Of a stretch of 64,000 bases of DNA, positions 19,522-58,770 are shown piece after piece. The notes under the pieces were generated by a model. That model saw only the letters and a list, made by a program, of their open reading frames with translations, was not told where the DNA came from and did no database searches. Where the stretch lies: positions 1 through 64,000 of the forward strand of contig CACWHX010000002.1 in the NCBI GenBank assembly GCA_902760845.1, in the 5' to 3' direction. This DNA comes from Oscillospiraceae bacterium. GTDB lineage: Bacteria; Bacillota; Clostridia; Oscillospirales; Oscillospiraceae. The position numbers and the translations under genes are program-made. Numbering within the stretch: the stretch's first letter is position 1; every line of letters begins with the position of its first letter.

Positions 19522-19569
19522 GGCCCGACGCCCGGCTTCGGCGTGGGGCGGGCGGCCTCCGGCGCTTCG

Positions 19570-19632
19570 CCGGGCAGAAAAGGATCGGGGTCCACGCACG
19601 TTTTCGGGCGTGACCTCTGCGAGGATTTCTTT
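19570..19632 (+). repeat. Decayed copy of the structured repeat family
   Basis: TTCGGGCGTGACCTCTGCG and the next six bases match the 3' part of the two full copies (49887 and 58519) at 22 of 25 positions, including CTCTGCGAGG (19615-19624). Upstream, GGGCAGAAAAGGATCGG resembles GGGCAAAAATGATTTGG of the copies. The GAGGA of this relic now sits 10 bases before the kinase ATG and probably serves as its ribosome binding site. Relationship is inferred from similarity by eye. Confidence 0.5.
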
Positions 19633-19635
19633 TGC

Positions 19636-49857: not shown

Positions 49858-49886
49858 AGGCGTGGATGCTCAGAACATCCACGCCT
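49858..49886. repeat. Left copy of the 29-bp hairpin flanking the repeat element
   Basis: AGGCGTGGATG and CATCCACGCCT form an 11-bp stem around CTCAGAA. The whole 29 bp recur without change at 50086-50114, on the other side of the element. This copy has no T run. Confidence 0.85.
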
Positions 49887-50085
49887 GAGCCTGTCGAAAA
49901 ACTTTTTTCGACAGGAGGAGATTGCGCTCCATGGATTGCCCTCGTTTGTGAATGCGATTCACAATAGGAGGGCAATCCATTCCGCGAGAAGTATTTTTGC
50001 CCCACGGCAAAGCCGCGGGGCAAAAATGATTTGGTTCTATTCGCGCCTTCGGGCGCGAACTCTGCGAGGCTTTTTTGATAAGCTG
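49887..50085. repeat. Structured repeat element, copy 1 (199 bp)
   Basis: Four hairpins in a row: hp1 49890-49915 (CCTGTCGAAAAA and TTTTTCGACAGG), hp2 49931-49980 (13-bp outer stem with ATGGATTGCCCTC, inner TTGTGAAT/ATTCACAA), hp3 49994-50026 (TTTTTGCCCC/GGGGCAAAAA plus CGGC/GCCG), hp4 50040-50059 (TTCGCGCC/GGCGCGAA with a TTCG loop). CTCTGCGAGG and a T run follow. The ends, GAGCCTGTCGAAAAA and (inverted) CAGCTTATCAAAAAA, are weak terminal inverted repeats. It is closely matched by 58519-58722 with compensatory changes. No protein is encoded. Either a non-autonomous mobile element or a structured RNA. Confidence 0.8.
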
Positions 50086-50122
50086 AGGCGTGGATGCTCA
50101 GAACATCCACGCCTCTTTTTTT
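50086..50122 (+). terminator. Right copy of the 29-bp hairpin, functional terminator
   Basis: Identical to 49858-49886 but followed by CTTTTTTTT, so this copy is a complete rho-independent terminator. Confidence 0.8.
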
Positions 50123-58480: not shown

Positions 58481-58518
58481 AACCCGCCCCTGCGGCCAAG
58501 CGGCCGCAGGGGCGGGTT
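58481..58518. repeat. Left copy of the 38-bp hairpin flanking repeat element 2
   Basis: AACCCGCCCCTGCGGCC and its exact complement form a 17-bp stem around AAGC. It recurs at 58723-58760 with a single change. This copy lacks a T run. Confidence 0.85.
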
Positions 58519-58722
58519 GCGCCGGTCGAAAAACGAGTTTTTCGACCGGAAGGGCTTGCGCTGCATTCCTTGCCCTCGTTTGCGAATGCGATTCGCAATA
58601 TGAGGGCAATCCATTCCGCGAGAAGTATTTTTGCCCCCGCGGCGAAGCCGCGGGGGCAAAAATGATTTGACCTGATTCGCGCCTCCGGGCGCGAACTCTG
58701 CGAGGCCTTTTTCGACAGACTC
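58519..58722. repeat. Structured repeat element, copy 2 (204 bp)
   Basis: Same plan as 49887-50085: hp1 58522-58549 (CCGGTCGAAAAA/TTTTTCGACCGG), hp2 (TTGCCCTC/GAGGGCAA with inner TTGCGAAT/ATTCGCAA), hp3 58628-58652 (TTTTTGCCCCCGCGGC side, fully paired), hp4 58676-58695 (TTCGCGCC/GGCGCGAA), then CTCTGCGAGG (58696-58705) and a T run. Stem changes relative to copy 1 are compensatory (T-A to G-C in hp1; T-A to C-G in inner hp2). The right end TTTTTCGACAGACTC is the inverse of the copy 1 left end at 14 of 15 positions. Confidence 0.8.
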
Positions 58723-58770
58723 AACCCACCCCTGCGGCCAAGCGGCCGCAGGGGCGGGTTTTGCATTTTT
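58723..58770 (+). terminator. Right copy of the 38-bp hairpin, functional terminator
   Basis: Same hairpin as 58481-58518 (one G to A change in the left arm), followed by TTGCATTTTTTC. It probably was the original trpZ terminator. Confidence 0.75.

Follow-up and report, generated by a model that had tools for sequence, protein, structure and literature searches.

A probable IS1182-type MITE lying between duplicated terminator hairpins in an Oscillospiraceae genome

Introduction

Some members of the IS1182 family choose their targets by shape. In Staphylococcus, IS1272 and TnSha1/TnSha2 rely on an IS1182-family transposase to enter stem-loops, often terminators, at the base of the stem or within it and without any sequence consensus (PMC4923244, PMC5678879). 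IS1272 enters terminator hairpins in such a way that the stem-loop is deleted and no duplication is left (PMC4923244, PMC5678879), and a cruciform has been proposed as its target, with the corollary that, if the joins were made at the 5' feet, the stem-loop would be duplicated in full (Wan et al. 2017, PMC5678879). This outcome, pathway b of Fig. 13 in that paper, in which both stem-loops of the cruciform are joined at their 5' feet, is a drawn possibility that was unobserved for IS1272. As noted in PMC5678879, Siguier et al. 2015 attribute palindromic targets to some IS1182 members, without detailed data. Short non-autonomous derivatives of an IS1182 element are represented by the ISMac2 MITEs of Methanosarcina acetivorans (160-169 bp), which have direct repeats of 4 bp or none and for which hairpin duplication is unreported in their description (PMC3852290). 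Unusually long target duplications (16-28 bp) are, on the other hand, a feature of the IS1202 group, for whose long-duplication members no conserved target was found and whose inverted repeats differ from those considered here (PMC10132070).

The locus described below shares the stem-loop target with IS1272 and TnSha1/TnSha2 and the short, protein-less form with the ISMac2 MITEs, but its stem-loop is kept and duplicated rather than removed. It lies in a window of 64,000 nucleotides, the whole stretch of DNA analysed, from an Oscillospiraceae bacterium.

Results

The element and its second copy in the window

The features of the locus and of a second copy further along the window are as follows.

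49,858-49,886, no strand: 29-bp target hairpin on the left of the element (target duplication); 100% identity with the one on the right
49,887-50,085, plus strand: 199-bp protein-less element, very probably a non-autonomous IS1182-type element (MITE); about 40 places in the host genome, ends matching IS1182-family elements
49,887-49,901, plus strand: 5' terminal inverted repeat GAGCCTGTCGAAAAA; host genome count of the end motif AGNYTGTCRAAAAA 51, of a control 1
49,890-49,915, plus strand: hairpin 1, including the 5' inverted repeat; perfect arms of 12 bp
49,931-49,980, plus strand: hairpin 2; perfect arms of 13 bp
49,993-50,027, plus strand: hairpin 3 of the conserved core; covariation over 50 relatives
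50,040-50,059, plus strand: hairpin 4 of the conserved core, from the core alignment
50,060-50,069, plus strand: CTCTGCGAGG box, invariant in the aligned cores, the relatives having been partly collected by the same motif
50,071-50,085, minus strand: 3' terminal inverted repeat, CAGCTTATCAAAAAA when read on the minus strand, from sequence and motif count
50,086-50,114, no strand: 29-bp target hairpin on the right of the element; 100% identity with the one on the left
50,115-50,122, plus strand: C plus T run completing the original terminator as read from the sequence, outside the stem and unduplicated
58,481-58,518, no strand: left 38-bp hairpin of the second copy, from sequence
58,519-58,722 (about), plus strand: second copy of the element, 86% identity over 192 bp
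58,723-58,760, no strand: 38-bp hairpin on the right of the second copy, differing from the left one by one mismatch

A first-pass annotation of the window had described a 199-bp element between two identical 29-bp hairpins, and both the coordinates and the identity were recovered. The four hairpins, the CTCTGCGAGG box and the weak terminal inverted repeats that it listed were all located within 49,887-50,085, the inverted repeats being imperfect; the T run (50,116-50,122) was seen after the right hairpin copy only, and the different hairpin reported around the second copy was found in the same arrangement. Open frames in the element simply traverse its hairpins and include no transposase gene.

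Copies and flanking hairpins in the host genome and in relatives

In the host genome (2.09 Mb in 118 contigs) the element is present at about 40 sites, its full-length copies there being mostly 86-91% identical to the 199-bp element. When the flanks of 31 host copies were aligned, 18 carried the same hairpin on the left and on the right (score 19 or more), and the duplicated hairpin differed from locus to locus nearly without exception. Since the mean score was 20.9 for flanks of the same locus against 8.5 for mispaired flanks, with 18 of the 31 copies at 19 or more, matching by chance is excluded; the 99th percentile of the mispaired flanks, 25.7, is probably inflated by six loci within one shared repeat family. 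Stem pairing within the duplicated stretches had a median of 14, whereas random segments reached 8 at their 99th percentile. Tabulating the flanks in this way, as the first-pass annotation had advised, thus upheld the duplicated hairpin at most of the copies aligned, with no clear duplication in the other 13 of the 31. Some copies have irregular 3' ends (L006, L010, L027), and copies truncated at the 5' end (L029, L030, L043) or at the 3' end also occur. In other genera of the family, the element likewise lies between duplicated hairpins (L039, L040, L164, L183, L195).

Several further features of the host copies are of note. The second hairpin copy has an altered or inverted loop at L002, L022 and L011, and at C105/C47 (L225, L283), L022 and L002 the loop of one hairpin copy is inverted with respect to that of the other, which suggests that palindrome loops flip or mutate after insertion. 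Very short elements of about 40-70 bp, consisting of little beyond the two inverted repeats (L227, L061, L072), two of them immediately after hairpins, hint at a minimal mobile unit. A host repeat family, 'B' (L090-L109; about 18 copies), made up of a hairpin followed by ACGCACGCTCCATCGCCC... / ACGCACGCTCCATCGCCCTCGGCTTCGCCTCGGTTGGTCGGCGTGCGGGC, is often the target of the element.

Empty sites

Element-free counterparts of the insertions were sought within the genus, and two of the seven loci tried had clear syntenic empty sites. At L018, beside a gene that we take from its sequence to be SecG-like and that is followed by another gene, the sister species G006, G009 and G007 share the flanking genes, lack the element and have a single hairpin. 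At L019, beside a HypA-like gene, G007 has the same flanking genes, again without the element and with one hairpin. These cross-species (orthologous) comparisons are complemented by paralogous ones from family B, whose hairpins have been entered several times by the element and many of whose element-free copies have one hairpin at the junction. The hairpin number at orthologous empty sites, which the first-pass annotation had named as decisive, is therefore one and not two, and its proposal that the element enters a hairpin and duplicates it whole is borne out by many loci together with these single-hairpin sites.

Geometry of the duplication

Duplication length ranged from 22 to 40 bp in 23 curated duplications (22 around transposase-less elements and one around the insertion sequence at L256), the boundaries being hand-curated where the element end and the target share a few bases. 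In these 23 cases, length correlated with that of the stem-loop (r = 0.60, p = 0.002), and the mean distance of both duplication edges from the stem feet was 0 nt (spread about 2 nt). The clear cases showed no preferred orientation relative to the T run (9 against 11), in keeping with a target that has dyad symmetry, for instance a cruciform.

Shared ends with autonomous IS1182-family elements

Relatives were searched for IS1182-family transposases with the NCBIfam model NF033551, which gave loci with the same ends abutting hairpins. Intact IS1182-family insertion sequences of the same bacterial order carry the inverted repeat CAGNCTGTCGAAAAAG and stand flush between duplicated hairpins. For example, the insertion sequence at L256 (1503 bp, 469 aa) lies between exact copies of a 34-bp hairpin, the left of which adjoins a run of N, and that at L254 (492 aa) has an exact copy of a 30-bp hairpin on each side; both transposases score above the NCBIfam cut-off. 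With the L254 transposase as query, GTDB genomes yielded 80 loci. Long direct repeats (score 18 or more) surrounded the insertion sequence in 22 of the 45 loci with enough flank, whereas no mispaired control exceeded 15; these repeats are hairpins, mostly flush with ends of the CAGNCTGTCGAAAAAG type or a diverged form of it, and several of the loci come from the complete genome of Oscillibacter valericigenes. In 24 curated cases, a few strings of which were hand-trimmed, the duplication measured 23-36 bp and correlated with stem-loop length (r = 0.78), with edge offsets of about 0 +/- 1.5 nt from the stem feet.

The ends of the 199-bp element, GAGCCTGTCGAAAAAC and CAGTTTGTCAAAAAAG, match the CAGNCTGTCGAAAAAG found at IS1182 copies, giving it an inverted repeat of the IS1182 type. 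The resemblance is confined to the ends, the inside being unlike that of the insertion sequences, and the protein-less and the autonomous elements have the same target behavior, that is, hairpin duplication flush with both ends. Most full-length copies have a stem-loop on both sides, unlike the outcome typical of IS1272, in which the stem-loop is lost.

Possible helpers in the host genome

The expectation that the element needs a helper agrees with its lack of any protein of its own, and the class of helper indicated is the IS1182-family transposase. The host assembly, a draft, yielded no intact IS1182 transposase that has these ends. The host does contain internally deleted IS1182 copies, broken over contig ends and located beside hairpins; one of them starts with GAGCCTGTCAAAGAAC, and one (C105 end / C47 start) seems to lie between two copies of one hairpin with opposite loop orientation. 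Two other candidates for the helper were set aside: an IS1182-like host gene, C10, with unrelated ends (GGCAACACCGCACAA), and the IS1202/ISNCY transposases, whose matches in the relatives lack the inverted repeat.

Discussion

Because the 199-bp element shares both its inverted repeat and the hairpin duplication with intact IS1182-family elements, it is very probably an IS1182-type MITE, mobilized in trans by an IS1182-family DDE transposase that would read the folded hairpin and join at its 5' feet. Judged from these comparisons, hairpin duplication is a property of this group of IS1182 transposases, since intact insertion sequences with the same ends also lie between duplicated hairpins. That an IS1182 transposase moved these particular copies, that the target was folded when attacked and that the chemistry takes place at the 5' feet are steps that we infer.

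In the proposed mechanism, the palindrome would be recognized not as a sequence but as a folded hairpin or cruciform, the fold attacked being either a cruciform or a hairpin in single-stranded DNA. Each 3' end of the element would be joined by a DDE transposase to one strand of the target, and whatever lies between the two points of joining would end up duplicated. In an extruded palindrome, the 5' feet of the stem-loops would face each other across the junction, so that closely spaced active sites could join at these feet on opposite strands while the whole stem-loop still lies between the joins, and gap repair would then place a copy of the entire hairpin on either side. Duplication length would thus equal hairpin length, and the T run, being outside the stem, would stay on one side. 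Joining at the 5' feet would in this way explain why the length varies, why the edges coincide with the stem feet, why no orientation is preferred and why there is a single T run. Hairpin recognition was one of two mechanisms raised by the first-pass annotation, and it is strongly supported at the level of sequence, by a duplication length that tracks stem length and by autonomous IS1182-family elements with the same ends that behave likewise.

The main alternative is that the transposase cuts double-stranded DNA with a long stagger whose length is more or less constant, like that of the IS1202 group (16-28 bp), and only prefers terminators, without recognizing their fold. Long duplications are known in that group (PMC10132070), and L045 suggests one duplication-like match outside any hairpin, but the lengths observed span 22 to 40 bp, track the stem-loop and have their edges at the stem feet. 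In addition, the IS1202-type (ISNCY_2) matches in relatives come without this inverted repeat, and the relatives searched yielded no IS1202-group member (ISNCY_2-type transposase) that has these ends, making this explanation very unlikely. We give still less credence to spread by copying through RNA, in which reverse transcription with target-primed synthesis would produce the hairpin duplication. The structured and conserved core and the 5'-truncated copies (L029, L030, L043) could be read in its favor, but 3'-truncated copies also exist, no RNA family matches at threshold, and the element has inverted repeats at its two ends that match those of a DNA transposon family whose target behavior is the same, so that this second mechanism of the first-pass annotation is not needed and finds no support. 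That both hairpins pre-existed, or that local duplication or gene conversion produced them independently of insertion, has a negligible chance of being right given the single hairpin at orthologous empty sites and the matching hairpins at many loci, around insertion sequences too, even though two different hairpins flank the element at a few loci (L016, L021).

With an IS1182-type MITE as the preferred reading, a target chosen by its fold and a duplication whose length is set by that fold would depart from the usual short, fixed-length duplications of transposases. The loci would provide dozens of natural examples of the stem-loop duplication drawn by Wan et al. 2017 as an untested branch, and the matched autonomous and non-autonomous elements offer material for studying how a DDE transposase reads a cruciform. 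What is new here is the MITE family and the natural cases of hairpin duplication by IS1182-type transposition, stem-loop targeting by the IS1182 family being already known; we found no published account of such hairpin duplication in a partial coverage of the literature. The ISfinder tables give direct repeats of 0-60 bp for IS1182, and duplications of this kind may therefore have been noticed by the curators. On the preferred reading, terminators duplicated on either side of small repeats in Oscillospirales would be transposition footprints, and such elements can enter gene ends with a hairpin remaining on each side.

The conserved inner core

Conservation of the element's 3' half extends beyond a single family of the order. 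Its inner core (A1 alignment; L031-L059, L150-L219) combines a strongly covarying fold with an invariant box, occurs in at least two families of the order and is absent from Rfam, with no match at the gathering score of any family in Rfam 15, group II introns and HEARO included. Pairing is kept in 86.5% of alignment cells, against 52% or less when the alignment is slid, and 154 cells have changed on both sides, against 48 in shuffles. The CTCTGC box is able to pair with an upstream GAG segment. G-U and A-C pairs were compared to judge whether the core behaves as RNA. Among directly found stems, G-U pairs numbered 17 against 46 A-C, a ratio probably biased by one constitutive A-C mismatch; in the alignment the figures were 55 and 32, with 41 of the 55 at two column pairs. 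The core could be an RNA, or else a fold of the DNA that mutation keeps palindromic. A functional role for hairpins 3 and 4 with the CTCTGCGAGG box, as an RNA or a single-stranded DNA structure that, for instance, guides or regulates hairpin-directed transposition or acts on neighboring transcripts, is a tentative and rather unlikely reading; if true, it would amount to a mobile structured-RNA family spread by a structure-directed transposase.

Cores were also met in other settings. A diverged relic at 19,545-19,635 of the window, with CTCTGCGAGG at 19,615-19,624, sits between a stop codon and the following start and is probably a third, old copy of the core. In two species, the core lies between genes that read as dnaK and dnaJ (L036, L037), and at L043, between apparent atpG and atpD genes, a 5'-truncated core at the end of the atpG-like gene supplies its stop codon.
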